Of a stretch of DNA of 37,420 nucleotides, positions 1,694 to 26,600 are shown piece after piece. Source of the DNA: Longispora albida DSM 44784 (GTDB taxonomy: Bacteria; Actinomycetota; Actinomycetes; Mycobacteriales; Micromonosporaceae); NCBI RefSeq assembly GCF_000379825.1, contig NZ_KB903813.1, forward strand, positions 45,802 to 83,221. The letters run 5' to 3'. Position 1 is the first letter of the stretch. Every line of letters starts with the position of its first letter. The position numbers and the translations under genes were made by a program. The notes under the pieces were generated by a model. That model was not told where the DNA came from and did no database searches. It worked only from the letters and a program-made list of their open reading frames with translations.

Positions 1694-2536
1694 TCACACA
1701 GCCTCGTGTCGGTAGATCGGGCTCAGCAGCTCGACCCTGGTCGGGCTGTGAGTGTCAGGGTCATAGTCGGCGCCAACGATCACTGAGAAGCGGTCGGTCT
1801 TGGCCTGCCGGTACAGCTCGTCGATTCGGGTACTGATCAGGTGGGCCACGCCGAGGGAACCCTGGGGGTGAATGCCCGTGAAGATGATCAGGTCGCCCAG
1901 GCCGTCTGGCCTTCTCAACCGCCCGAGGTAAGCCGTGTCGTTCGGACGCGGAGGGTCCTGATCCTGGCCGGATCGGTACCGCTGGCCTGTCTGCCTGTCC
2001 ACCAGGGTCCAGACCTGGTCGTGGTCACGCTCGAACCTGATGAACGGGTCCTGATCGAGGACTTCAGCGATGGCGGGGGAGATCCGGGGACCAGACACCA
2101 CGATCAAGCCTGCGCGGTTGAGGTCGATCGCACCGCCGACCGGGATGCGCTCGGTCGAGCAGTCAAGGCCGAACGACTCGGCTAGGTCCTTGAGCTGGCT
2201 GGCTACGTCGGTATCCTCCACCGCAACCACCGGGCGGGATCGGATGGTTTCCCGCTTCACGGGGATGGCGACGGTGATCGAGCCAGAACCGAGGAAGGCC
2301 CCTTCGGCTGCGGGGCCGTCCTGCTTGATCTGGTGGATCCGCCCACGGCTCAGACCTACAGCCTTGGCAATGTCGCCGTAGGAGTGGCCTTCGTCGTGCA
2401 GCTCAGCGATCAGCAGCTTCCGAAGCCTGCCAAGCTCTGTGGCCTCCTGACGCGCTTCTGCCATCTTCTTCGTGGCGCGGCGTACCGCCTCGAAGCGATC
2501 CGGTAGCTCCCTAAGCTCTCGAACGCTGTCGATCAT
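1694..2536 (-). CDS. Helix-turn-helix regulator with sigma-70 region-4-like N-terminus
   Basis: About 280 residues from the ATG at 2536, which has GGGAAGGG upstream. A longer version from a TTG at 2620 adds 28 residues. The N-terminal third has a helical stretch (VRRATKKMAEARQEATELGRL...) and then the clear helix-turn-helix HSYGDIAKAVGLSRGRIHQI, as in sigma region 4 and Hin-like domains. The C-terminal 180 residues are a separate domain with VVAVEDTD, LIVVSGPRIS and a WTLVDRQTGQRY hairpin. It looks Rossmann-like, but I do not recognise it and it may sense a ligand. The gene points away from the long rightward operon and is next to the twin palindromes, so it is the obvious candidate for their binding protein. 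Its phosphatase neighbour suggests control by phosphorylation (inference). Confidence 0.7.
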   Translation of the reverse strand: MIDSVRELRELPDRFEAVRRATKKMAEARQEATELGRLRKLLIAELHDEGHSYGDIAKAVGLSRGRIHQIKQDGPAAEGAFLGSGSITVAIPVKRETIRSRPVVAVEDTDVASQLKDLAESFGLDCSTERIPVGGAIDLNRAGLIVVSGPRISPAIAEVLDQDPFIRFERDHDQVWTLVDRQTGQRYRSGQDQDPPRPNDTAYLGRLRRPDGLGDLIIFTGIHPQGSLGVAHLISTRIDELYRQAKTDRFSVIVGADYDPDTHSPTRVELLSPIYRHEAV

Positions 2537-2622
2537 CGCCACGCACCCTTCCCTAGTCGGGTCGCATACCCGCTCAGCCCCCATGTCCAGGAGCACGTTC
2601 CGTTCCTTGCCTTCGCTCAATC

Positions 2623-2638
2623 CTAGATCCTTGTCTAG
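2623..2638. promoter_or_regulatory. Degenerate half-site of the TGTCTAG operator
   Basis: TGTCTAG at 2632-2638 is preceded by the imperfect CTAGATC at 2623-2629. It has the same half-site as the two palindromes downstream but the arms are in everted order. It lies just upstream of the leftward regulator gene, so it could serve autoregulation. Confidence 0.35.
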
Positions 2639-2674
2639 GCCCCTTGACGCCCGGCGAACGGATGAGTACTTTGG

Positions 2675-2692
2675 TGTCTAGCCCCCTAGACA
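2675..2692. promoter_or_regulatory. Operator palindrome 1, TGTCTAG-N4-CTAGACA
   Basis: TGTCTAGCCCCCTAGACA is a perfect 7-bp inverted repeat with a 4-base spacer. A second copy with the same arms and the same spacer length begins 43 bases downstream (about four helix turns), so both could be bound on one DNA face. It sits between the divergent regulator gene and the rightward operon. Confidence 0.65.
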
Positions 2693-2717
2693 GTGCCGGG
2701 AAGCCTCGGCGGTCAAC

Positions 2718-2735
2718 TGTCTAGGGTACTAGACA
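2718..2735. promoter_or_regulatory. Operator palindrome 2, overlapping the ribosome binding site
   Basis: TGTCTAGGGTACTAGACA is a perfect 7-bp inverted repeat with a 4-base spacer. Its last base is the first base of AGGAGA (2735-2740), the Shine-Dalgarno sequence of the gene starting at 2746. A protein bound here would lie over the promoter/5' end of the operon and should repress it. Confidence 0.65.
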
Positions 2736-2745
2736 GGAGATTGCG

Positions 2746-3177
2746 GTGGCGATTGCTGGTGGTTTCCGGTTCAAGGTCGACATGGCGGATGTGTTCCCGA
2801 AGGGGTGCGTGATGGGTGCGGATCCGGTGGTGGCGGTGACGGACTTCGAGAAGAAGGGGAAGAAGGCCGACGACCAGGAGCGTGACAAGCAGGATCCGGA
2901 TCTGCGGGTGTGGGCGGTGCGGGTGACTGACCTGGACGAGGCGCTGGTGGGTAAGTCGCGTGAGGTGGTTGTGAAGATCTCGGCCACGGTGCAGCCGGTT
3001 CCGCCGGTGGGTGCGTTCCAGCAGGTGGAGTTCGAGGGGCTGACGATCACGCCGTGGGTGGAGGAGAAGTCGTTCGGCGGGGTGAGCCGGGGCGTTCAGA
3101 AGTTCTCGATCCGGGCGACCGGTTTCAAGATGTCGGGCAAGGCTGCTCCGGCGGCGGCCCCGAAGGCTGGCGCGTGA
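2746..3177 (+). CDS. AICE-conserved small protein, SCO3933-like (tentative)
   Basis: 143 residues from a GTG with AGGAGA five bases upstream. The body alternates strands (FRFKVDMADVF, VWAVRVTDLDEAL, REVVVKISATVQPVPPVG, QQVEFEGLTITPWVEE) and ends in a low-complexity KAAPAAAPKAGA tail. This resembles the small beta-rich proteins that open many Streptomyces AICE operons and are called SCO3933-family regulatory proteins. An OB-like fold is possible. First gene of the rightward operon, directly behind the twin operators; its stop overlaps the next start. The function is not established, and roles in control of excision/replication are guesses from position. Confidence 0.5.
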   Translation: MAIAGGFRFKVDMADVFPKGCVMGADPVVAVTDFEKKGKKADDQERDKQDPDLRVWAVRVTDLDEALVGKSREVVVKISATVQPVPPVGAFQQVEFEGLTITPWVEEKSFGGVSRGVQKFSIRATGFKMSGKAAPAAAPKAGA

Positions 3178-3401
3178 TGCGGCGGTCGGCGCGGTCGAAC
3201 CTGGACACGACGGTCAGCCAGCATGTCCGTGAGTACACCGAGTGTTCCTACGTGGTCTATGGCCATCAGAACCGGGTGACCGTGGACGTCGGCCAGGTGA
3301 CGTTGTTCCTGCCCGCCTCCGAGCTGGCTGAGCTGATTGACGTGCTCGGTGAGGTTCAGGCGGAGCTGGCTTTGGCGGTCGTGCCGCCGGATGGTTCGTG
3401 A
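3177..3401 (+). CDS. Small hypothetical protein of the AICE
   Basis: 74 residues. The ATG at 3177 overlaps the preceding TGA (TGATG), indicating translational coupling; a longer in-frame opening upstream lies inside the previous gene and is not used. The sequence begins MRRSARSNLDTTVSQHV and has a beta-hairpin-like centre (CSYVVYGHQNRVTVDVGQVTLFL) followed by an amphipathic helix (ASELAELIDVLGEVQAEL). I do not recognise the family. It is followed by the first CTTGGCGG leader hairpin. Confidence 0.55.
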   Translation: MRRSARSNLDTTVSQHVREYTECSYVVYGHQNRVTVDVGQVTLFLPASELAELIDVLGEVQAELALAVVPPDGS

Positions 3402-3413
3402 TCGGTCTTGGTG

Positions 3414-3474
3414 GTGCTGGGCCGGTGTTCTTGGCGGAATCTGCGGCCCAGCACTCGTAGCAACTCCCTGATGA
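3414..3474 (+). promoter_or_regulatory. CTTGGCGG leader hairpin, copy A
   Basis: A perfect 11-bp inverted repeat, GTGCTGGGCCG (3414-3424) and CGGCCCAGCAC (3444-3454), closes a 19-base loop containing CTTGGCGG (3430-3437). The tail holds TCCCTGAT (3465-3472), five bases before the AGGAGG of the next gene. The same loop core and tail recur in copies B and C with different stem bases, which argues for conserved RNA structure. CTCC at 3464-3467 could pair with the GGAG of the Shine-Dalgarno. Confidence 0.6.
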
Positions 3475-3488
3475 GCAGGAGGTGTGCT

Positions 3489-3671
3489 GTGGGCAAGCGT
3501 ACGGCAACCAGCCTCGCGACGCCGGAGGGCAACCCGGTGGGCAAGTGCGAGGTGTGCCGGAAGAAGAAGACTCTCAGCAACGGCCGGTGTGAGGTCTGCG
3601 CCGGGCAGCTTGAGATCGCGTTCCCGGCGGTGCGGGACAGTTCGGGCCGGTTCGTGAAGGCGGGCTGGTGA
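3489..3671 (+). CDS. Mini zinc-ribbon protein (CxxC...CxxC)
   Basis: 60 residues from a GTG with AGGAGG six bases upstream; earlier in-frame starts would run through the leader hairpin. The centre is KCEVCRKKKTLSNGRCEVC: two CxxC knuckles 12 residues apart, the classic spacing for one structural zinc. The rest is short and basic (GKRTATSLATPEG at the front, SSGRFVKAGW at the end). Probably a small DNA-, RNA- or protein-binding module. It overlaps the next start (GTGATG). Two other tiny Cys-rich proteins are encoded in this element. Confidence 0.6.
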   Translation: MGKRTATSLATPEGNPVGKCEVCRKKKTLSNGRCEVCAGQLEIAFPAVRDSSGRFVKAGW

Positions 3672-3871
3672 TGGCCGGGCTGATGGTGCGCACGTCGTAT
3701 CCGTGCGGGTTGTGTGACGGTGCGGGTGAGGTTCCGGCTTCGTCCTTGGTGGACGGTGCGGCGCTGGTGATCTGCCCGGTGTGTGAGGGCTCGGGTTCAG
3801 ACCCGGATGTGGTGGCTCGTGACCCCCTCGCGCCGGTGCGCCGGCCGGTTTCGCTGCTGGTGGTGGCCTGA
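3668..3871 (+). CDS. Small CxxCxGxG-type zinc-finger protein
   Basis: About 66 residues; the start is GTG 3668 or ATG 3671, both overlapping the previous stop. Two knuckles, CGLCDGAGEV and CPVCEGSGSD, follow the CxxCxGxG pattern of DnaJ-type zinc fingers, here in one pair only. The C-terminal part is Pro/Val rich. The stop (TGA 3869-3871) overlaps the next ATG. No specific function can be read; a protein-protein adaptor role is possible. Confidence 0.55.
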   Translation: MMAGLMVRTSYPCGLCDGAGEVPASSLVDGAALVICPVCEGSGSDPDVVARDPLAPVRRPVSLLVVA

Positions 3872-4455
3872 TGGCCCGGCGGAAACGGCGTAGCGGGCTG
3901 GTGCGGGCGTGGCGGCGGTCGAAGTCGGCGTACCGGACGGCGAAGAGGCGCTACCGGCAGGCGAAGAAGGTTGCGAGGGCTGCTGCGGCTGGTACGCGGC
4001 GGGTGTGGCGGAAGGTCACCTACCGGGAGCTGGGGGAGCGGATCGCAGCCGACACCCTGGCGCGGGCGGCGGCGCGGGAAGCCAGGCGGCGTGAGGGGTC
4101 TTCGCGGGTGCCGAAGGTCGCGGTGCATGAGCCGCCGGAAGTGGTCAAGGCAGTGATGGCAGCAAGGAAGACAACGGCAACGGCGGGACTGGGAGGTTCA
4201 GCGGTGGATGCGCTCGGGATGGTGGACGCGGCGGCTCGTGGGAAGTCGTCGGAGCATGAGCAGGCGATGGCGATCGTGAACAAGTGGCTGTACGTGGTGA
4301 ACGAGGCGGCGGTGAACCTGGCGACGGTGCGGGGTGAGTCCTCGGAACTGTCGACGGATGTGCTGTCGCTACCGCTGGCTGGTGCGATGCGCAGGCTGGA
4401 TGAGGCCATGCAGGTGCTCATGATGCTGCGCGGCCGTGTCGCGGAGATGGGTTAG
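3871..4455 (+). CDS. Hypothetical protein with strongly basic N-terminus
   Basis: 194 residues, ATG overlapping the preceding stop. Residues 1-50 are very rich in Arg/Lys (MARRKRRSGLVRAWRRSKSA onward), which suits nucleic-acid binding. The second half is helical with hydrophobic heptads (EQAMAIVNKWLYVVNEAAVNL, MRRLDEAMQVLMMLRGRV). No cysteines and no membrane segment. The helical half is similar in character to the next two small proteins, which are also acidic/helical, so they may assemble together (inference). I do not recognise a family. Confidence 0.5.
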   Translation: MARRKRRSGLVRAWRRSKSAYRTAKRRYRQAKKVARAAAAGTRRVWRKVTYRELGERIAADTLARAAAREARRREGSSRVPKVAVHEPPEVVKAVMAARKTTATAGLGGSAVDALGMVDAAARGKSSEHEQAMAIVNKWLYVVNEAAVNLATVRGESSELSTDVLSLPLAGAMRRLDEAMQVLMMLRGRVAEMG

Positions 4456-4459
4456 AGGC

Positions 4460-4696
4460 GTGGCGGGCCAGATGGTGCTGCCGCCCGGGATGGATGCGGG
4501 CGAAGCCCTGGGTGTGCTGTACAGCGCGGGGCACAAGGTCGGGCAGGCGCATGCGGACCTCGAAGACGCCGCCGGGGACGTCGAGGACATCGGACTGGAT
4601 GTCCTTGAGGGGTCCCTGGAGCGGGCGAAGAACGCAGCGTACGACGTCCTGGAAATGATCTCCGATCTCAAGACCGCTGCACGTCGCGGTATGTAG
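4460..4696 (+). CDS. Small acidic helical protein
   Basis: 78 residues from the GTG at 4460, four bases after the previous stop. The sequence is mostly one acidic alpha-helical stretch (ALGVLYSAGHKVGQAHADL, DVEDIGLDVLEGSLERAKNA) with a short basic end (AARRGM). It resembles in size and character the 68-residue protein encoded downstream at 4836. Unknown family. It precedes the 139-base leader that carries the tRNA-like fold and hairpin copy B. Confidence 0.5.
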   Translation: MAGQMVLPPGMDAGEALGVLYSAGHKVGQAHADLEDAAGDVEDIGLDVLEGSLERAKNAAYDVLEMISDLKTAARRGM

Positions 4697-4708
4697 CAGC
4701 AAGAGGTA

Positions 4709-4752
4709 GCCCGGCCGTCAGGCGGCGTTCCCGGTTCGATCCCGGGGCGGGC
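4709..4752 (+). ncRNA. tRNA-like three-way junction with a canonical T-arm mimic
   Basis: Outer stem GCCCG (4709-4713) with CGGGC (4748-4752). Arm 1 is GCCG/CGGC (4714-4717, 4723-4726) with a five-base loop. Linker GTT. Arm 2 is CCCGG/CCGGG (4730-4734, 4742-4746) with the seven-base loop TTCGATC, identical in form to a tRNA T-loop and followed after one base by the outer stem. There is no anticodon arm and no full tRNA can be drawn. It could be a tRNA 3'-end relic or a structural mimic in the leader of the 4836 gene. Confidence 0.4.
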
Positions 4753-4758
4753 ACGAGG

Positions 4759-4829
4759 CAGGCCAGCCGGTGAGCTTGGCGGCGACCGGGCCTGTTCTCT
4801 TCCCTGATCTGTGACTCCGATGTGGAGGG
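4759..4829 (+). promoter_or_regulatory. CTTGGCGG leader hairpin, copy B
   Basis: Stem CAGGCC-(AGC)-CGGT (4759-4771) pairs with ACCGGGCCTG (4785-4794), ten pairs with a three-base bulge. The 13-base loop GAGCTTGGCGGCG (4772-4784) carries the conserved core. The tail has TCCCTGAT (4801-4808). CTCC at 4815-4818 can fold onto the GGAG of the Shine-Dalgarno (GGAGGG, 4824-4829) with a five-base loop, seven bases before the GTG start. Confidence 0.65.
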
Positions 4830-4835
4830 TATGTC

Positions 4836-5042
4836 GTGACGAAGGAAGAAGAGCTGCGGTTCCTGCTCGCGGTTGGACGTCACGTCCGGCGGGCGCACGA
4901 AGAGATGGAACCGGCGGTGCGGCAGCTGAAGAAAGCCGAAGAGTTCGCCTACATCACCGAGCGTGCCGATGCCGCGCTCGTCCTGCTCGACTGCGTGCTT
5001 GACCTGCTGGCCGGATCGATGCCAGACCTCACCGAGGCGTAG
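4836..5042 (+). CDS. Small helical protein of the AICE
   Basis: 68 residues from a GTG with GGAGGG six bases upstream. Almost wholly helical: KEEELRFLLAVGRHVRRAHE, then a charged stretch, then a hydrophobic end (AALVLLDCVLDLLAGSMPDL). The hydrophobic C-terminal helix is not long or clean enough for a confident membrane call. It stands alone between leader copies B and C, so its expression should be set by copy B. Unknown family. Confidence 0.5.
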   Translation: MTKEEELRFLLAVGRHVRRAHEEMEPAVRQLKKAEEFAYITERADAALVLLDCVLDLLAGSMPDLTEA

Positions 5043-5057
5043 CGGCACATGCAAGAC

Positions 5058-5125
5058 GGAAGGCCACCGAGCTTGGCGGCAGATGGCCTCCCGATCTCCC
5101 CTGATCCGCAAAAACCTGGAGAGGA
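5058..5125 (+). promoter_or_regulatory. CTTGGCGG leader hairpin, copy C
   Basis: Stem GGAAGGCCA (5058-5066) pairs with TGGCCTCCC (5084-5092), eight pairs with one A-C mismatch. The 17-base loop (5067-5083) contains GAGCTTGGCGGC (5069-5080), the same 12 bases as in copy B. The tail has CCCTGATC (5098-5105). GGAG (5118-5121) of the Shine-Dalgarno can pair with CTCC (5126-5129) across AGGA. It precedes the traB-like gene. Confidence 0.65.
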
Positions 5126-5135
5126 CTCCATCCTA

Positions 5136-6869
5136 ATGCGTACTTCCCTGGCTCCTTCGCGCCGTTCTGCGGCTGACGTCCTGGTCGGCACGCTGTTCCG
5201 CGCTGCGGGCATGCTCCTGGTCCTGCTCGGCAAAACCGCCTGGGCGCTCGTCAAGTTCCTGGCCCGTCACCCCCGCTCGACAGCGGTCCTGGCTGTCGCT
5301 GGGGCGCTCGTTCACAAGGCGGGCTGGCCTGCCCTCGCTGTGGTCCTGGCCCTGGCTGGAGGTGTCCTGGCCGGGTGGCGTGGCCTGCACCCGCGCTCGT
5401 TCCGCCGGACCGTGCAGCCGTGGATCGTGGCGTGGTGGCGGCGGTGGTCGTTCTACTCCCGCCAGTGGCCCGGCTGGGCGTACCGCTGCAAGCTGACCGT
5501 CCGCACCGAAGACGGCGGAGAAGAGGCCGCCCAGATCCGCAAGGTAACCGTGACGCCGGGTACCGATCGGCTTCTGGTCCGCATGCCGGTGGGCCTGCAA
5601 CCCAAAGCGTTCGAGAACGCAGCCGACGCTCTCCAGCATGCCTCGGGGTCCCTCGATTGCCGGATCATCCCCGCTGGCAAACCGGCTCATGTGGTCATCG
5701 AGTTCCAGCGGCGTGACGTCCTGGCCGCCGTGGTCCCGGCCCTCCCGGTCCCCGCCGGACCCGCCAGCCAGGCACCACTGCCCCGCCCTATGGAGATCGC
5801 GCGTAAGTGGGCGGCTCCGGTCCTGCGGTATCTGCCTGGCGTGGTCCCGGCAGAGCAGTCCGAGTTGTCCCCGGTCGCCAAGCTCGGTATCGACCTGGGT
5901 GCCGTGCCGGTCGGGATCCGGGAAGACGGAAACCGCTGGGCGCTGCCCCTGCTGGGCCGTCACGTCCTCGTCGGTGGCATGTCCCGGTCGGGCAAGGGCA
6001 GCATCATCTGGTCCCTGATGCGGCATCTGGCTCCGGCGATCCGTGACGGCCTGGTCGTGGTCGACGGCATCGACCCGAAAGGCGGCCTGGAACTGGAGAT
6101 CGGCAAGGCCATGTTCGCCCGGTACGAGGCTGACGACCTCGAAGCGATGGCCGACCTGATCGAAGCCGAAGCGGCTGACGCCGACCACCGCTCGAAGCTG
6201 CTGCGTGGCGGGGCTCGTAAGTTCACGCCGTCGGCGGAGTACCCGTTCCGGATCCTGCTCATTGACGAACTCGCCTCCCTGACCGCCTACGCCCCGATGG
6301 CCATCCGCATGCGCGTGGAGAAGGCCCTGGGGCTGCTGCTGACCAAAGGCGCAGCCCCCGGCTTCTGCGTGCTCGGCTTCGTCCAGGAACCCTCCAAGGA
6401 CATCGTGCCCATGCGCGGCCTGTTCACCCACCGCGTCGCACTCGCCCTGGACACTCCGTCGCAGGTGGACATGGTGCTGGGTGACGGCATGCGTGACCGG
6501 GGCGCGTACGCAGACCAGATCAGCCTCGCGACACCCGGTGTCGGCTACGCCAAAGACGATGCCGAACGGCAGCCGTTGCGGGTCCGGGCCGCCTACGTCA
6601 CCGACGACGAGATCCGCGACATGGCCGAGACCTACCCCGCACCCGGCATCACCCTGGCCGCTGTCCTCGGCGCGGGAGAACCGGCCTCCGCCCCGGCGAC
6701 AGCCCCGGCCACGGTTCCGCTTCCGGCCAAAACGCAGCCTGGCCCGCTGCTGCCTCCGGCTCTGCTGGCCGTGCTCAACAAGGCCACCAAGCCCGAGCCT
6801 GACGCCAGCGACGGCAACGGCAACGGGCCTGCGGCCGGTGACAGCACGACCGGTGGTGGTACCCGATGA
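5136..6869 (+). CDS. traB: TraB-like conjugative DNA translocase (FtsK/SpoIIIE family)
   Basis: 577 residues from the ATG at 5136, with GGAGAGGA about ten bases upstream; an ATG at 5049 would run through the leader hairpin. The N-terminus has two or three membrane segments (LLVLLGKTAWALVKFLA, AVLAVAGALV, ALAVVLALAGGVLAGW), residues about 10-85. Walker A is GMSRSGKGS at 281-289; Walker B is RILLIDELASL with Asp377-Glu378. TraB proteins form hexameric pores and pump double-stranded plasmid DNA between hyphae using ATP, without relaxase or type IV secretion. The C-terminal 60 residues are Pro/Ala rich; the family's winged-helix recognition domain is not obvious to me. Central transfer gene of the element. 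Confidence 0.85.
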   Translation: MRTSLAPSRRSAADVLVGTLFRAAGMLLVLLGKTAWALVKFLARHPRSTAVLAVAGALVHKAGWPALAVVLALAGGVLAGWRGLHPRSFRRTVQPWIVAWWRRWSFYSRQWPGWAYRCKLTVRTEDGGEEAAQIRKVTVTPGTDRLLVRMPVGLQPKAFENAADALQHASGSLDCRIIPAGKPAHVVIEFQRRDVLAAVVPALPVPAGPASQAPLPRPMEIARKWAAPVLRYLPGVVPAEQSELSPVAKLGIDLGAVPVGIREDGNRWALPLLGRHVLVGGMSRSGKGSIIWSLMRHLAPAIRDGLVVVDGIDPKGGLELEIGKAMFARYEADDLEAMADLIEAEAADADHRSKLLRGGARKFTPSAEYPFRILLIDELASLTAYAPMAIRMRVEKALGLLLTKGAAPGFCVLGFVQEPSKDIVPMRGLFTHRVALALDTPSQVDMVLGDGMRDRGAYADQISLATPGVGYAKDDAERQPLRVRAAYVTDDEIRDMAETYPAPGITLAAVLGAGEPASAPATAPATVPLPAKTQPGPLLPPALLAVLNKATKPEPDASDGNGNGPAAGDSTTGGGTR

Positions 6870-7132
6870 CCCGCCGCTTCTACCGGCTGCGCACACCCGC
6901 CGAACCCGGTACCGGGCCGGTCGCGGTGTCCGTGCGGGTCGATGAGACCACAGGAGAGCTGTACCTCGCGGTCGGTGCCGGGCGTCGCCGGATGGGGCTC
7001 ACACCTGATGAAGCCTGGGCGTTGTGGCGGTGCCTGTCGGAGGCCGTGTCCTCGGTCAGCGAGCCCCCGGCGTTCGTCATGACCCACATCAAAGCCTCCC
7101 GTCCCCGCAAGCAGAAAGGCGGCACATCATGA
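6866..7132 (+). CDS. Small hypothetical protein between traB and rep
   Basis: 88 residues, ATG overlapping the traB stop (ATGA). Two strands look likely (GPVAVSVRVDETTGELYLAVG), followed by MGLTPDEAWALWRCLSEAV, a helix, and a basic tail (SRPRKQKGG). No recognisable motif. Coupled to its neighbours on both sides, it belongs to the traB-rep operon. Confidence 0.55.
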   Translation: MTRRFYRLRTPAEPGTGPVAVSVRVDETTGELYLAVGAGRRRMGLTPDEAWALWRCLSEAVSSVSEPPAFVMTHIKASRPRKQKGGTS

Positions 7133-7299: not shown

Positions 7300-7478
7300 A
7301 CCGGACCTCTGGCCCGTCGAAGGCTTTCACCCGGATCAGCCGGGGCTTCGCGCTCGACATCGACCGGCGCTGGCGCGACACAGAAGACGACCCCTACGCC
7401 GACTGGATCACCCGCCGTGCGACCCAGCTCCACGACGACCAGGCCGCCGAGTACACCGGATGGGAGGAACAGCCATGA
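7296..7478 (+). CDS. Small hypothetical protein upstream of rep
   Basis: 60 residues, ATG overlapping the stop of the Cys-rich gene (ATGA), and its own stop overlaps the rep start (ATGA at 7475). Charged and helical, with many Arg and Asp (DIDRRWRDTEDDPYADW, ATQLHDDQAAEYTGWEE). No motif I can name. Its tight coupling suggests co-production with the initiator. Confidence 0.5.
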   Translation: MNRTSGPSKAFTRISRGFALDIDRRWRDTEDDPYADWITRRATQLHDDQAAEYTGWEEQP

Positions 7479-9274
7479 CCGCCACCGTGACCGCCCTCCC
7501 GCTCCCCGGCCTCGCCCCGGTGCAGGCTGAGCCGGAGGCCCCTCGTCCGGGATCGCGTGCTGCCCGTCAGACCGTGCCGCTGTCCAAGGCGGTCCTGAAA
7601 GAGATCGCGGCTGAGGCCGGGGTGTGCCTGCACCCGATCGCCCTGCGCCGCACCGACACCACCACCGGCCTGACCGAGATCACCGAAGTTCCGTGCGGTG
7701 CCCGGCTCGCGTCGAAGTGCGTGCCCTGCGCCGAGAAGAACCGCAAGCTGCGGGTCCAGCAGATCCGGGAGGGCTGGCACCGCGACACCGAACCCGACCC
7801 TGTGCCCCGCCAGTCCACAATGGAAGAACGCTGGCTCGTGACGCACCGCGCCGCCCTCGAATGGGAACGCGCCGCCCTCGCGACCGCCCAGCTCCACCCC
7901 GACGAACGCGCCCGCCAGCTCGCAGACCTCGACGCAGCCATCGAAGACATCGCCGCCGAGCTCGCGAACGCCGGCCTGCGCGGGTCACTGCCGTCCTCGG
8001 CGGACAAGGCCAAACCTGCCGTGAAACGCTCGACCAAGCGGCGTCAGGACGTACCGGACCTGCCGCGCATGAAGGTCGACCGGGGCCGCACAGTGGGGCG
8101 GGTGATCGCCGGGCGTGACGGATCGATGCACCGCGACTCGATGCTGCTCACCATCACGCTGCCGTCGTACGGCGACATCCACTCGCCCCGGAGGGCTGGG
8201 CGTCCGGTGTGCGCGTGCGGGTCATCGCATCACCCAGACGATCCGGTGGTGGGTACCCCGGTCGACCCTGCCTCGTACGACTACCGCCGTGCCGCCCTCG
8301 ACAGCATTCACTTCTCCCGGCTGACCGACCGGCTTTGGCAGAACCTCCGCCGCGCGACCGGCATCAACATCCAGTACGCGGGCTGCGTCGAACTTCAGAA
8401 GCGGCTTGCCCCTCACGCGCACTTCGCCGTACGCGGCACCGTCCCCCGCGCCCTGGTCCGCCGGGTCGCTGAGGCCACCTACCACCAGGTGTGGTGGCCC
8501 GCCCACGACGAACTCGCCCACGACCCTGCCCGGCCACCCCGATACGACGCCGAGGCCGACTGCTGGATCGACCATGCTGGTACCCCGGTCGACCTGGTGC
8601 CGTGGGACGACGCGGTCGAGGCCATCGACCAGGACGACCAGCCCGAACCCGCTCACGTGATCCGTTGCGGCCGGATCGACCCGCGCGGCGTGAAGGGCGG
8701 AACGAAGGACGCTGAGCGCACGGTCCGGTACGTCACCAAGTATCTGACCAAAGACATCACCGACCACGTGAAACCCGAAGCCGCGGCTGCTGCTGCGCAC
8801 TTCGACCGGCTCCACGCTGAGCTGTCGGTGCTGCCGTGCTCGGCGACGTGCGCGAACTGGATCCTCTACGGCATCGCACCCAAAGGCTGCTCGGGCAAGC
8901 TGAGGCCGGGCAACTGCCGGGGGAGTGTCCACCAGCGCGAATCACTCGGCTTCACCGGACGCCGGGTCCTCATCTCCCGCCAGTGGTCCGGCAAGACACT
9001 CACCGATCACCGGGCCGACAACGCCGCATGGGTCCGGGCGCTGCTGGCTCTCGGCAACGGCGACCAGGACGGCGAGCAGCAACCCGGCCAGCCACCGGCC
9101 CCGGCCCGCTACGCCTACGAACTCTGCCGGCCCGGAGACCCAGACCTACCCCCCGAATCCGTCCGCATCATGCGCGCCATCACGGTCCGGGCTCAATGGA
9201 AACACCAGGTCAGGCAAGCAACACAACGACTCGAAGAACTCTCGGCAACTGGCGTGCTGGCCCGAGCGGCATGA
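7475..9274 (+). CDS. repSA: Rolling-circle replication initiator, RepSA-like
   Basis: 599 residues from the ATG at 7475. The HUH metal motif is LAPHAHFAVRG (His314, His316). The nicking-tyrosine motif is RYVTKYLTKDI (Tyr419/Tyr423), about 105 residues later, the order expected for HUH initiators. Cys clusters at the front (CGARLASKCVPC) and near the end (CSATC...CSGKLRPGNC) suggest zinc sites, as in the pSAM2 RepSA group. These proteins nick the double-strand origin and start rolling-circle synthesis of the excised element. The frame is full length. Excisionase and integrase follow, so replication and excision share a transcript. Confidence 0.88.
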   Translation: MTATVTALPLPGLAPVQAEPEAPRPGSRAARQTVPLSKAVLKEIAAEAGVCLHPIALRRTDTTTGLTEITEVPCGARLASKCVPCAEKNRKLRVQQIREGWHRDTEPDPVPRQSTMEERWLVTHRAALEWERAALATAQLHPDERARQLADLDAAIEDIAAELANAGLRGSLPSSADKAKPAVKRSTKRRQDVPDLPRMKVDRGRTVGRVIAGRDGSMHRDSMLLTITLPSYGDIHSPRRAGRPVCACGSSHHPDDPVVGTPVDPASYDYRRAALDSIHFSRLTDRLWQNLRRATGINIQYAGCVELQKRLAPHAHFAVRGTVPRALVRRVAEATYHQVWWPAHDELAHDPARPPRYDAEADCWIDHAGTPVDLVPWDDAVEAIDQDDQPEPAHVIRCGRIDPRGVKGGTKDAERTVRYVTKYLTKDITDHVKPEAAAAAAHFDRLHAELSVLPCSATCANWILYGIAPKGCSGKLRPGNCRGSVHQRESLGFTGRRVLISRQWSGKTLTDHRADNAAWVRALLALGNGDQDGEQQPGQPPAPARYAYELCRPGDPDLPPESVRIMRAITVRAQWKHQVRQATQRLEELSATGVLARAA

Positions 9275-9287
9275 GGAGGTGGCGACC

Positions 9288-9497
9288 ATGAGTGAAGTGC
9301 GAACCGTCACGACGGCTGCTGATCTGCTGACGATTGATGAAGTGATCGCGATTCTCCGCGTTCCCCGGTCGACGTTCTACTACTGGCGGCAGCGCAGGCG
9401 TGGCCCGGTTTCGATCAAGCTGCCCAACGGTGATGTCCGTATATCGCGTTCCGAGTTCGAGCAGTGGCTTGTCTCGCACCAGGAGGTGTGGACGTGA
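9288..9497 (+). CDS. xis: Excisionase (MerR/AlpA-like winged helix)
   Basis: 69 residues, ATG at 9288 with AGGAGG (9274-9279) eight bases upstream. The helix-turn-helix LLTIDEVIAILRVPRSTFYY is followed by a beta wing (GPVSIKLPNGDVRISRSEF), the standard form of AICE excisionases. They bind and bend DNA near the attachment sites and turn the integrase towards excision. The stop overlaps the integrase start (GTGA), so the two are coupled. Confidence 0.88.
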   Translation: MSEVRTVTTAADLLTIDEVIAILRVPRSTFYYWRQRRRGPVSIKLPNGDVRISRSEFEQWLVSHQEVWT

Positions 9498-10888
9498 CCA
9501 CCAGTTACAAGGTGAAGTTCTGGAGCGTGCGTAAGCGGGCCGGGCGTGCTCAGCCGTGGGAGTTTCGCTGGGTGGTCGGAGGGAAGGAGCATTCTGAGTC
9601 GTTCCTGACGAAGCCGCTGGCGGAGAACTTCAAGTCGGACCTGATGCGGGCGGCTCGTGAGGGCGGGGCCTTCGACGTGGAGTCGGGCTTGCCAGAGACG
9701 ATGGTCAAGAAGGTCTCCTGGTACGACCACTGTGTGTCCTATGCGGACATGAAGTGGCCCGGCTTCGCGGGGAAGTCCCGGCAGTCGATGTCGGAGGGGC
9801 TGACGGCGGTGACGGTCGCCCTGCTCGGCAAGAAGCCGGGGCGCCCGGACGGCAAGCAGATTCGCCACGCGCTGTACTCGTACGCGTTCAACCCGGTCAA
9901 GCGCTCTGAGGGTGTGCCGGAGGATGTGGCGGCGGTCCTGGCGTGGGTGGCGAAGGCTTCGCCGGTGGTGGATGTGCTGAAGGACCTGGGCGTGGTGCGG
10001 AGGGTCCTCGACGCGCTGACGGTGCGGCTCGACGGCAAGGCCGCTGCGGCTACCACGATCTACCGCAAGCGGTCGGTGTTCTACAACGCGCTGGGGTACG
10101 CGGTGGAACTGGGACTGCTGGCGTCCAACCCGGTCGACGCGATCCAGTGGAAGGCCCCGAAGGTCGCCGAAGCCGTTGACCGGAGGGTGGTCGCGAACCC
10201 GCCGCAGGTTGAGACCCTGCTGACGGGGGTATGGATGCAGGGCGGCGCGGGTGAGCACCTGGTCGCGTTCTTCGGCACGCTGTACTGGGCTGGGTGCCGT
10301 CCGGCTGAGGCGCTGGAACTCAAGCTCGCTGGCTGCTACCTCCCGGAGGAGGACGGCGAGTGGGGGCGGCTGGACTTCGAGATGTCGTCGCCCCGGTCCG
10401 GCGCCGACTGGACGGACGGCCGGACCGCCCGGGACTCGCGGGGGCTGAAGCACCGGAGCCGGAAGGACGTGCGGCCGGTTCCGCTCCCGCCCCCGGGTGT
10501 GCGGCTGCTGCGCTGGCACATCGCCAGGTTCGGGGTCGCTGCGGATGGCCGCCTGTTCCGGACTGCTTCGGGTGGCTATGTCACGGACGGCAACTATGCC
10601 TCGGTGTGGCGTGGTGCGCGGGAGCGGGCGCTGACTCCGGCGCAGGCTGCCTCCCCGCTGGCGGCCCGGCCGTATGACCTCCGTCATGGGTGCGCGTCGC
10701 TGATGCTGAATGCGGGCGTTCCGGCTACGGAGGTCGCGCGGCGGCTCGGGCAGGGGGTGGCGGTGCTGATGAAGGTGTACGCGAACTGTGTCGACGGCCA
10801 GGAGGAGATCGCCAACACGGCCATCATGGCGGCACTGACGGGCTGGTCGGGGTCTGGCACACTAGACGCCGGAGACAGCGGGTCCTAG
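9494..10888 (+). CDS. int: Site-specific tyrosine recombinase (integrase)
   Basis: 464 residues from GTG 9494, with AGGAGG seven bases upstream and overlapping the xis stop. The N-terminus is a DNA-binding region; the C-terminal catalytic domain has Arg269 (AGCRPAEALEL), a basic hairpin (RSRKDVRPVPLP), PYDLRHGCAS with Arg397, and the nucleophile Tyr429 (MKVYANC). The usual His of HxxR is Tyr, as in many actinobacterial integrases. The second conserved position, normally GH in GHSVxVLLxVY, reads GQ (Gln420), which is unusual. The protein joins attP to attB. Its gene ends 81 bases before tRNA-Ser. Confidence 0.88.
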   Translation: MTTSYKVKFWSVRKRAGRAQPWEFRWVVGGKEHSESFLTKPLAENFKSDLMRAAREGGAFDVESGLPETMVKKVSWYDHCVSYADMKWPGFAGKSRQSMSEGLTAVTVALLGKKPGRPDGKQIRHALYSYAFNPVKRSEGVPEDVAAVLAWVAKASPVVDVLKDLGVVRRVLDALTVRLDGKAAAATTIYRKRSVFYNALGYAVELGLLASNPVDAIQWKAPKVAEAVDRRVVANPPQVETLLTGVWMQGGAGEHLVAFFGTLYWAGCRPAEALELKLAGCYLPEEDGEWGRLDFEMSSPRSGADWTDGRTARDSRGLKHRSRKDVRPVPLPPPGVRLLRWHIARFGVAADGRLFRTASGGYVTDGNYASVWRGARERALTPAQAASPLAARPYDLRHGCASLMLNAGVPATEVARRLGQGVAVLMKVYANCVDGQEEIANTAIMAALTGWSGSGTLDAGDSGS

Positions 10889-10969: not shown

Positions 10970-11052
10970 GGAGGGCTCGCCTAGTGGCCGATGGCGCCGG
11001 TCTTGAAAACCGGTAAGGGAAACCTTCGTGGGTTCGAATCCCACGCCCTCCG
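10970..11052 (+). tRNA. tRNA-Ser (anticodon UGA)
   Basis: Class II tRNA. Acceptor GGAGGGC (10970-10976) pairs with GCCCTCC (11045-11051), discriminator G, no encoded CCA. Anticodon stem CCGGT/ACCGG encloses CTTGAAA with TGA at 11004-11006. A long variable arm (TAAGGGAAACCTTC) and a T-arm with GTTCGAATC are present. The gene is intact. Confidence 0.95.
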
Positions 11053-11109
11053 CTCTTTCTCCCCCGGATGAGGGAAGCCTGCCCGGTGGGCGCCCGCGAG
11101 GGTGGACGC

Positions 11110-23687: not shown

Positions 23688-26600
23688 GTGTCAAAGAAAA
23701 AGACAGCGGCTCTCGCGCTGCCCCTGGCGGCGCTGACAGCGTTCGCTCTGGGTGGTTCGAGCCCAGCCCTGGCTGACCCGGTGGAGGCAGGCGACTTCTC
23801 GCCGGGTCTCTACATCGTCCAGCTCGACGACAAGCCCCTCGCGTCCTACACGGGCGAGCTGCCGGGCCTGGCGGCCACCAAGCCAGCCGACGGCGCGAAG
23901 CTCGACGCGCGCAGCCCGCAGGCCCGCGAGTACATCGCGCACCTCGGCAAGCAGCGCGACTCGGTCGCCAAGTCGGCCGGCGTGAAGCAGGAAGTCACCT
24001 ACGACACCGCGTTCAACGGCTTCGCGGCCAAGCTGACCGGCGCGCAGGCGGCCAAGCTGACCAAGACCCCTGGCGTCGCGAACGTCATCAAGAACGAGGT
24101 CCGCACCCTCGACACCTTCTCCACCCCGGACTTCCTCGGCCTGACCGGCAAGGGCGGCGCGTGGGAGAAGCAGTTCGGCGGCCAGGGCAAGGCCGGCGAG
24201 GGCGTCATCATCGGCGTCGTCGACTCCGGTTTCGCCCCGGAGAACCCGAGCTTCGGCCCGCTGTCCGAGCCCCGGCCGGACGCCGCCGACATCTCGGCGC
24301 AGTGGAAGGCCGGCGCCGTCTCCGGCAACACCGACACCCGTGACAACACGATCGTCTGTGACCCGGGTACGGATGCCCCGGCCAAGGCCGCCGCTGTCAC
24401 CTGTAACAACAAGGTGCTCGGTGCCCGCTGGTACCGGACCGGCATCACCCAGATCCCGGACGAGTTCGACTCGCCGCGTGACTACACCAGCCACGGCAGC
24501 CACACCGCGTCGACGGCCGGCGGCAACGCCAACGTCACCGCGACCGCTGCTGGCGGCCACACGTACGGCAAGATCTCCGGCATGGCCCCGGCTGCCCGCC
24601 TGGCCATCTACAAGGTCTGCTGGGCGATCGACTACGTGGGCGGCAACTCCTGCGGCAACGTCGACTCCGTCAAGGCGATCGACCAGGCCGTGCTCGACGG
24701 CGTTGACGTCATCAACTACTCGATCTCCGGCTCGCGCACGTCCGTTGTGGACCCGGTCGAGCTCGCGTTCCTGAACGCCGCCCAGGCTGGCGTCTTCGTC
24801 GCGGCCTCCGCCGGCAACTCCGGCGACACCGTCGGCGTCTCCTCGGTCGCGCACAACAGCCCGTGGGTCACCACGGTCGCCGCGAGCACCCACGACCGGG
24901 CGTTCCGCAAGACCGTCACCCTCGGCAACGGCGTGACCTACACCGGCCAGGGCCTCGGCGCGGCTGTGCCGAACTCGGACCTCGTCGACTCGGTGAACGT
25001 CGGCCTGGCCGGCAAGAACCCGACCGAGGTCGAGCTGTGCTACCCGGGCAACCTGGACCCGGCAAAGGTCACCGGCAAGATCGTGCTGTGCAAGCGCGGT
25101 GTCAACAGCCGTACCGACAAGAGCCTCGCCGTCCAGCAGGCCGGCGGCGTCGGCATGGTGCTGTACAACCCGACCGCCAACTCGCTGGCCGCCGACCTGC
25201 ACGCGGTCCCGACCGTCCACGTGAACAACGTGGAGGGTGCGGCGATCAAGGCGTACCTGGCGACCGGTACCCCGAAGGCCTCGCTGAGCGCCGGGGTGCA
25301 GTTCTCCAACCGCGCCCCGGAGATGGCCGGCTTCTCGTCCTACGGCCCGGCCCTGGCCGGCGGCGGTAGCCTGCTCAAGCCCGACATCACCGCCCCCGGT
25401 GTCGACATCGTCGCCGCCGTGGCCTCCGCCGGCACCACGCCGCAGTGGAGCTCGATGCAGGGCACCTCGATGTCGAGCCCGCACATCGCCGGTCTCGCCG
25501 CCCTGATCAAGTCGGCCCACCAGAACTGGGGCCCGATGACCATCAAGTCGGCCCTGATGACGACGGCCAGCCAGACCGACAACAACGGCAAGCCGATCCA
25601 GGCCCTCGGCAAGGACGCGACCCCGCTGAACTTCGGCGCCGGTCACGTCGTCCCGACCAAGGCCTTCGACCCGGGTCTCGTCTACGAGTCCGGCCTCGAG
25701 GACTGGCTGAGCTACATCTGCGCCCTCGGCCAGAAGCCCGCCGCCGACGTCATGGCGCTGGACTGCAGCGACTTCCCGAAGGTTGACGCCAGCGACCTCA
25801 ACCAGCCGTCGATCGCGATCGGTGGCCTGGGTGGCTCGCAGACCATCACCCGTACGGTGAAGAACGTCTCCGACAAGACCGGCATGTACACCGCCCAGGT
25901 CCAGGCTCCGGCCGGCACGACCGTCACGGTCACGCCGTCCCGCCTCGTCGTGGCCCCGGGCAAGACCGCCACCTTCAAGGTGAAGATCACCTGGAACGGC
26001 GCGGCGTTCGGCAAGTACACCTTCGGCTCGCTGACCTGGAACGACCAGCGCGGCCACCTGGTGCGCAGCCCGATCGCGGTCCGTCCGCTCGGCCTGGTCG
26101 CCCCGGGCGAGATCACGGTCGAGGGCACCGACGGCTCCGCTGAGCTGGCCCTCAAGTCCGGCTTCACCGGCACGCTGAACACCACGGTCACCGGCCTCAC
26201 CGCCTCGACCGTGAACGACCTGAACCTCAAGGTCGGCACGCACAGCTTCGACACCGACCACCCGGCCACGAGCGAGTTCGTGGGCTCCGTGGAGGTCACC
26301 GTCCCGGCGGGCAGCACCTACGCCCGGGTAGCCACCTTCAACAGTGACTACGCCGCCGGCACGGACATCGACCTGTACGCGTACAAGAAGAACGCCGACG
26401 GTTCGCTGACCCCGGCCGGTTCCTCGGGTGGTGGCTCCTCCGACGAGGTGATCAACCTCCCGAGCACCGGTACCTTCGTGGTCTTCGTCGACCTGTTCAG
26501 CGCGGCCAGCGGTACCGAGGTCGCCATCAAGCACCACTCGTGGGTCCTCAGCGCCGACGCCGGCAACCTGGCGGTCAGCCCCGCCACCCGCCCGGTCACC

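Follow-up and report, generated by a model that had tools for sequence, protein, structure and literature searches.

The first 11 kb of the stretch analysed here, hereafter the window (37,420 nucleotides of Longispora albida DSM 44784, contig NZ_KB903813.1, positions 45,802 to 83,221 of the forward strand), hold an element of the actinomycete integrative and conjugative element (AICE) type, and the spacers of its rightward conjugation operon carry the same small hairpin (H1) three times, as copies A, B and C. The octamer CTTGGCGG is found at 3430-3437, 4775-4782 and 5072-5079 (+), each time at the tip of a GC hairpin followed on its 3' side by CCCTGAT and then by a ribosome site. By eye, the three hairpin spacers are the only intergenic gaps of more than about 10 bases between 2746 and 9274. 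The hairpins, their flanking features and the genes of the element are as follows.

3414-3454 (+): copy A hairpin H1, an 11-bp perfect stem with apical C[UUGGCG]G at 3430-3437
3414-3424 and 3444-3454 (+): copy A stem arms, GTGCTGGGCCG and CGGCCCAGCAC
3464-3482 (+): copy A tail CTCCCTGAT and ribosome site AGGAGG, mostly paired in the minimum-energy fold
3496-3501 (-): copy A antisense -10-like box TACGCT (sense AGCGTA), no -35 found
4759-4794 (+): copy B hairpin H1, apical C[UUGGCG]G at 4775-4782, with a 3-nt bulge
4759-4764 and 4789-4794 (+): copy B stem arms, CAGGCC and GGCCTG; inner arms CGGT and ACCG at 4768-4771 and 4785-4788
4799-4829 (+): copy B tail CTTCCCTGAT and ribosome site GGAGGG, looped in the minimum-energy fold and paired in the centroid
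4826-4831 (-): copy B antisense -10-like box TACCCT (sense AGGGTA), overlapping the ribosome site
5057-5093 (+): copy C hairpin H1, apical C[UUGGCG]G at 5072-5079
5057-5066 and 5084-5093 (+): copy C stem arms, CGGAAGGCCA and TGGCCTCCCG, with one A-C mismatch
5095-5124 (+): copy C tail TCTCCCCTGAT and ribosome site GGAGAGG, partly paired in the fold (TGGAG with CTCCA)
5130-5135 (-): copy C antisense -10-like box TAGGAT (sense ATCCTA), immediately before the start codon of traB
2746-3177 (+): orf1, first gene of the operon; its product has an all-beta model, weakly resembling OB folds and single-strand-binding (SSB) proteins, and its homologues sit 5' of the hairpin in relatives
3489-3671 (+): orf2, a 60-aa Cys-containing small protein, translated after copy A
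4836-5042 (+): a small protein of 68 aa, translated after copy B
5136-6869 (+): traB, an FtsK/SpoIIIE-like conjugation ATPase, translated after copy C; its Pfam match lies below the cut-off
7475-9274 (+): RepSA replication initiator (PF20199, E 3e-88)
1694-2620 (-): divergent helix-turn-helix (HTH) gene
9464-10888: integrase-like gene, named by eye
10970-11053: tRNA-Ser

The observation of a three-copy element in the operon spacers, with which the original prediction began, is confirmed in its coordinates, arms and CCCTGAT tail, and it exceeds what shuffled sequence yields. An 8-mer common to all three spacers arose in 10 of 20,000 dinucleotide-preserving shuffles, and a common 8-mer together with a common downstream 7-mer in the same order in 0 of 20,000. 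The octamer alone is unremarkable in the organism's own genome (380 occurrences, and 487 for the pattern read backwards), where the combined pattern is found four times: the three window copies and one on another contig, C20, which looks coding by inspection. Measured against shuffles, the folding energy is unusual in copy A only (z about -3, with +0.5 for B and -0.6 for C). At the gathering threshold Rfam 15 reports three tRNAs only in the whole window, and between 3380 and 5160, at E up to 5, a single match far below threshold and on the other strand.

Further copies of the hairpin upstream of genes in related elements had been anticipated, and they were found, in the same operon. Relatives of TraB were collected as 36 loci from named genomes and, in addition, from 200 genomes of the host family, 136 of which had a TraB match. 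When CTTGGCGG was sought inside a stem, the TraB-relative loci ranked at the top among the matches listed, and most of the relatives whose sequences were read have a strong hairpin 3' of the orf1 stop codon. Across 49 locus rows (three of them duplicates), CTTGGCGG lies on the operon strand in 13 and is inverted in 17; with near variants included, 14 operon-strand and 19 inverted loci have the loop after orf1. The remaining loci have another loop class or a hairpin further downstream, as in the window, whose copy A comes after the second gene. The mRNA of 19 of the 33 relatives reads CCGCCAAG, the loop being inverted while gene order and ribosome site are unchanged; the ribosome site keeps its operon orientation in these loci, for example in L009. 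In a quick TraB tree, the inverted loci of the UUGGCG class form one clade, which includes one locus without orf1, and the inversion in this clade may have been a single event. One feature of the window is not general: the expectation of one element per spacer fails in the relatives, which have one such hairpin after orf1, and the only other multi-copy case seen is L107, with two copies of another loop class. Downstream of the hairpin in L138 is a protein that, by eye, resembles the 60-aa orf2 product.

Alignment of 36 elements on the octamer separates what is conserved from what drifts. The octamer positions hold 1.7-2.0 bits, while most flanking loop positions hold 0.1-0.6 and two hold 1.1-1.3. 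The stems vary in sequence and keep their pairing, as predicted: among 24 distinct hairpins, the two arms form 9.54 of 10 pairs within an element as against 6.05 of 10 between elements, and across 14 operon-strand sequences both partners have changed in 5 of 16 pairs, a number matched by 0 of 500 shuffles. At the apex, 51 elements (three from the window, and at least five loci fetched twice) reduce to 21 distinct 14-mers, with the hexaloop UUGGCG in 46 of the 51 and UUGCCG in five. All 21 distinct forms have a Watson-Crick closing pair, which in L032 has changed from C-G to U-A around an intact hexaloop; the second pair is Watson-Crick in 17 of the 21, in four types (0.41 expected between elements), and the third in nine (0.22 expected). 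On these comparisons, what is conserved is the hexaloop UUG(G/C)CG together with the short covarying helix beneath it, set inside a longer variable stem. The proposal that loop and tail are both conserved as sequence thus survives for the loop and falls for the tail, as CCCTGAT itself is not kept in the relatives, where a pyrimidine run remains that often ends in CCTG.

A covariance model, R2, built from seven inverted-type hairpins and that of L145, was run over 300 whole genomes of the family and gave 15 hits in 13 genomes at E up to 0.01, all of which adjoin an orf1 homologue (L193 was read by eye). At least five of these hits are the training loci themselves, with orf1 100% identical, which leaves at most ten new ones. 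Two candidates outside the operon setting were set aside. In G075, the pattern occurs twice, 1.46 kb apart, in what by inspection look like coding repeats. L119 and L130, one sequence on two viral contigs, have a 7-bp stem that scores like copy C, ranked among the matches listed for 21 viral-contig stretches with the exact pattern, and this stem falls within an opposite-strand open frame of 289 codons; a TraB query found no viral relative.

The hexaloop is not the only form of the hairpin. Other conserved loops occur as well: those of the GCCGTAGGAAGCC and CCCTAGGAA types occupy a similar place in the operon in L007, L019, L106, L107, L150, L151 and L153, plasmid pMR2 has a CGGCCCT loop, and Actinocatenispora loci have a TCACGCAC...GCATG loop before traB; in L102-L105 of that genus the gap before traB reads GGCCGCCCG-TCACGCACNNNGCATG-CGGGCGGCC, followed, wherever the locus was read, by a T-rich stretch. 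On the same stem, the sister loci L007 and L153 bear loops that are exact reverse complements of each other. In L107, the hairpins at 6577-6613 and 6953-7007 (operon strand) share an almost identical 19-nt loop (GTGTAGCCGTAGGAAGCCA) on unlike stems, which makes L107 the second operon seen with a copied loop module. Class-wide, orf1 was found in 71 of 296 genomes, and 29 loci of this set were scanned for hairpins. In one family, GC hairpins with loops such as CCGGCTACCAACC occur at six loci, directly after orf1 at three of them and one gene further on at the other three; two loci have another hairpin type, and many others have no such hairpin.

A second conserved feature lies beyond the hairpin, on the opposite strand. 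The minimal -10 box of actinobacterial promoters is TANNNT. Of 55 elements, 42, covering 8 of 13 lineage labels and including copies A, B and C of the window, have this motif on the antisense strand 20-62 nt 3' of H1, where in most relatives it is close to the next start codon. Strand was set by gene orientation; six operon-strand loci and pMR2 have self-complementary stems. The same motif is present on the sense strand in 2 of 55 elements, and at the mirror position 5' of H1 in 1 of 55 on the antisense strand and 0 of 55 on the sense strand, with a background of 537 in 20,800 random 27-nt spans (2.6%) and of 23 in 677 starts of open reading frames (3.4%), many of these frames being spurious. 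In 14 of 14 hand-picked distinct gene starts of the inverted type, a rare NTA codon (GTA, CTA or ATA; NTA makes up 2.25% of Val, Leu and Ile codons) provides the box, and the amino acid varies. The box spans two codons in the operon-strand clade and the class-level relatives, and lies upstream of the start codon in copies B and C of the window. That the box is kept although the amino acid changes, and that its codon placement differs across lineages, indicate that selection acts on the nucleotides. Compared with shuffles, the RNAs predicted to start from the box fold strongly for copy A (z -4.2), L138 (-5.5) and L009 (-4.4), and moderately for copy C (-2.3).

Of 33 elements searched for a complement to the hexaloop in cis, over about 330 nt downstream, 32 have none: all 16 operon-strand copies and 16 of the 17 inverted ones. 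The base-pairing partner of the loop, if there is one, is thus probably the RNA of the other strand, and in the inverted forms it is the antisense strand that carries the hexaloop. We propose that an antisense-RNA switch governs the AICE conjugation operon and that H1 is its target leader, a reading to which we give a probability of a little under one half (about 0.48). The antisense -10-like box would be the promoter of a short RNA with its 5' end near the start codon and H1 within its length. The sense and antisense hairpins would then make contact loop to loop, and as one of the two RNAs has the UUGG (YUNR) U-turn, either orientation of the hairpin would work. From the loops, pairing would spread, and in the quiescent element neither the small proteins nor TraB would be translated. 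As the three copies in the window share one loop, the antisense RNAs could act on all three leaders, tying the dose of the small proteins to that of TraB.

Several results weigh against this antisense switch. The box counts are not independent, since elements within a lineage are related, and 13 of the 55 elements have no box within 62 nt (L144, where it is slightly further away; one of the two L107 copies; seven class-2 elements, pMR2 among them; L145 and L154; and two Actinocatenispora loci). No -35 is conserved, the best match to TTGACA being 3 of 6 in the 15 boxes scored, and a sigma-70 scan of 2600-5300 returned no promoter. At copy B the box overlaps the ribosome site, so that the predicted RNA would start just short of it, and this RNA folds no better than shuffles (z +0.5). 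At copy C a terminator-like hairpin with a T-run lies on the antisense strand at 5117-5130, between box and H1, and could either truncate antisense transcripts or be due to chance; no clear terminator was found for the predicted antisense RNAs. Only in the fold of copy A is pairing of the ribosome site clear. By reading, the GCCGTAGGAAGCC loops have no YUNR on either strand, and loops of plasmid antisense systems tend to diversify, which makes so widely shared a loop odd. Model R2 also fails to recover the window: copies A and C rank second and third there (E 0.46 and 0.61, not significant), copy B is missed, and the best hit, at 25357-25399 (E 0.038), looks coding by inspection. In the organism's own genome R2 has no match at E up to 0.01. 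By sequence, the window stems have diverged far from those of the relatives, and it is hexaloop, stem, position and antisense box, not model score, that tie the window copies to the family.

Other explanations dispense with an antisense RNA altogether. H1 could be an mRNA element that works in cis only, as an attenuator, partial terminator or stability hairpin setting the ratio of orf1 to downstream products, perhaps with a second helix that limits translation. That a GC hairpin follows orf1, directly or one gene on, in the several loop classes read is in keeping with this, as are the ribosome site, mostly paired in the fold of A, partly in that of C and for B only in the centroid, and the Actinocatenispora hairpin before traB with its T-rich stretch. 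It leaves unexplained, however, why the hexaloop stands at 1.7-2.0 bits between drifting flanks and is kept in both orientations, and why TANNNT recurs on the antisense strand. Moreover, terminator-like matches in 2600-5300 number 2 against 1.0 expected, and the one on the + strand overlaps copy B alone; the other is that on the - strand at 5117-5130, with none on A or on the + strand of C. We regard an element of this kind as unlikely. A metabolite riboswitch or a site for an mRNA-binding protein would account for a covarying stem with a conserved loop, and the original prediction had named a bound protein, a small RNA or a ligand as the likely cause. A reader of CUUGGCGG on the mRNA, however, cannot read CCGCCAAG, and both are conserved, the loop being inverted in 19 of the 33 relatives; this argues against a protein or ligand that recognises one strand, as does the lack of an Rfam match at gathering score. 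A metabolite or protein that reads one strand is thus very improbable, and is contradicted unless the inverted forms have no function; of the three options it is the small RNA that survives.

Indifference to orientation would come naturally to a site that acts in DNA, as a hairpin in single-stranded or cruciform DNA whose tip is bound or cut by a protein on either strand, be it a host factor, a single-strand origin or a transfer locus. In conjugative plasmids, clt sites can hold inverted repeats (PMC3583192), and AICEs of the RepSA type use rolling circle replication (PMC3218068). Such a site would leave the position before the ribosome site and the antisense box unexplained. RepSA is rejected as the reader of the loop, as loop class is independent of it: the Reps of L145 and L102 are 87% identical and only L145 has the loop, while those of L107 and L138 are 78% identical and their loops differ. 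Recognition by TraB, in the manner of TraB recognition sequences (TRS) at clt, is unlikely, since loop class does not track TraB cleanly and the window TraB ends in a low-complexity tail with, by inspection, no evident winged helix; nor were close direct repeats of the TRS/clt kind seen, the relatives having one hairpin octamer after orf1 and the window three far apart. A host motif resembling Chi or KOPS was discarded, the octamer not being over-represented in the host genome. We hold a DNA-level site to be improbable on the whole. A further reading takes the CTTG in the loop as the nick motif of pC194-like origins, and H1 as the double-strand origin of the RepSA that the element encodes. In PMC3218068, pSAM2 is put in the pC194 family on its RepSA motifs and nick site. 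The independence of loop and Rep contradicts such an origin, and three of them in tandem within one operon would presumably be disruptive, which makes it extremely unlikely.

The antisense switch can be extended into a broader proposal, which we offer tentatively and with more doubt than confidence: that a widespread, invertible and so far unrecorded class of kissing-loop leaders controls TraB-type conjugation in actinobacteria. It would comprise the UUGGCG, CCNTAGGAA, CCGGCTNCCAACC and TCACGCAC classes, with sense and antisense RNA swapping roles on inversion; one class would have converged on the hexaloop used by antisense plasmids of enterobacteria, and the module would have been copied before three genes of the window as a cross-acting switch. 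Among the best-ranked papers listed by full-text search of one open-access library, with subscription papers mostly outside it, none describes the motif, antisense control in AICEs or RNA-level control of actinobacterial TraB-type conjugation. If the antisense reading is right, it supplies a testable off-switch for TraB in this family of elements, the same kissing hexaloop is in use in distant mobile elements, and inversion of a loop together with its conservation becomes an evolutionary signature by which antisense-controlled leaders can be discovered from sequence.

As to the rest of the element, Orf1 has no match in Pfam or NCBIfam, and a fold search against the PDB gave nothing at E < 0.001, with weak matches that include MCM and SSB proteins. 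Its predicted model is all-beta (pLDDT 83), which hints at an OB-fold, single-strand-binding protein. Between orf1 and the divergent HTH gene lies an operator-like inverted repeat, CCCTAGACAGT...ACTGTCTAGGG, at 2684-2726. The host genome has a second, distant TraB relative at C2:653167-653982, with 29% identity over part of the query. Between L145 and L102 or L104, RepSA is 86-87% identical as against 40% for TraB and 29% for Orf1 (L102), and from such identities it is clear that AICE replication and transfer parts undergo module swapping.

Among known systems, the closest likeness in the loop is to plasmid replication control. The UUGGCG loop is shared by the antisense systems of IncB, IncFII and IncL/M plasmids, and in IncI-alpha a distal CGCCAA forms an activating pseudoknot. 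Asano et al. 1998, on the target of ColIb-P9 Inc RNA, name UUGGCG in their title as the loop motif, and the repZ leader resembles the present case as a hairpin with a 5'-UUGGCG-3' loop in a plasmid gene leader that serves post-transcriptional control of a dose-critical gene. Here, however, no CGCCAA partner exists in 16 of 16 operon-strand copies, and the corresponding complement occurs in 1 of 17 inverted ones; a pseudoknot of the IncI-alpha type was rejected, as no partner was found downstream. Our hairpins also precede small genes and traB, not rep directly, and they belong to the conjugation genes of Micromonosporaceae AICEs, in both orientations and in three copies in the window operon. 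We do not claim membership in the ColIb-P9 type, as the leader hairpin with UUGGCG is present and the pseudoknot partner and replication target are not. In function, Anti-Q/prgQ of pCF10 is comparable, an antisense RNA from a convergent promoter that controls a conjugation operon, according to PMC6540685; pCF10, however, works by transcription termination with a pheromone circuit. Plasmid pMR2 of Micromonospora rosaria resembles the window in its operon and in having a GC hairpin 5' of a small gene, and differs in that its loop, CGGCCCT, belongs to another class and there is no CTTGGCGG hairpin. Lastly, the clt and TraB recognition sequences of Streptomyces share with our element a short repeated motif near a tra gene, sometimes in inverted repeats (PMC3583192); there they are direct repeats, bound in pSVH1 by the winged helix of TraB, whereas the element described here presents single loops in hairpins.

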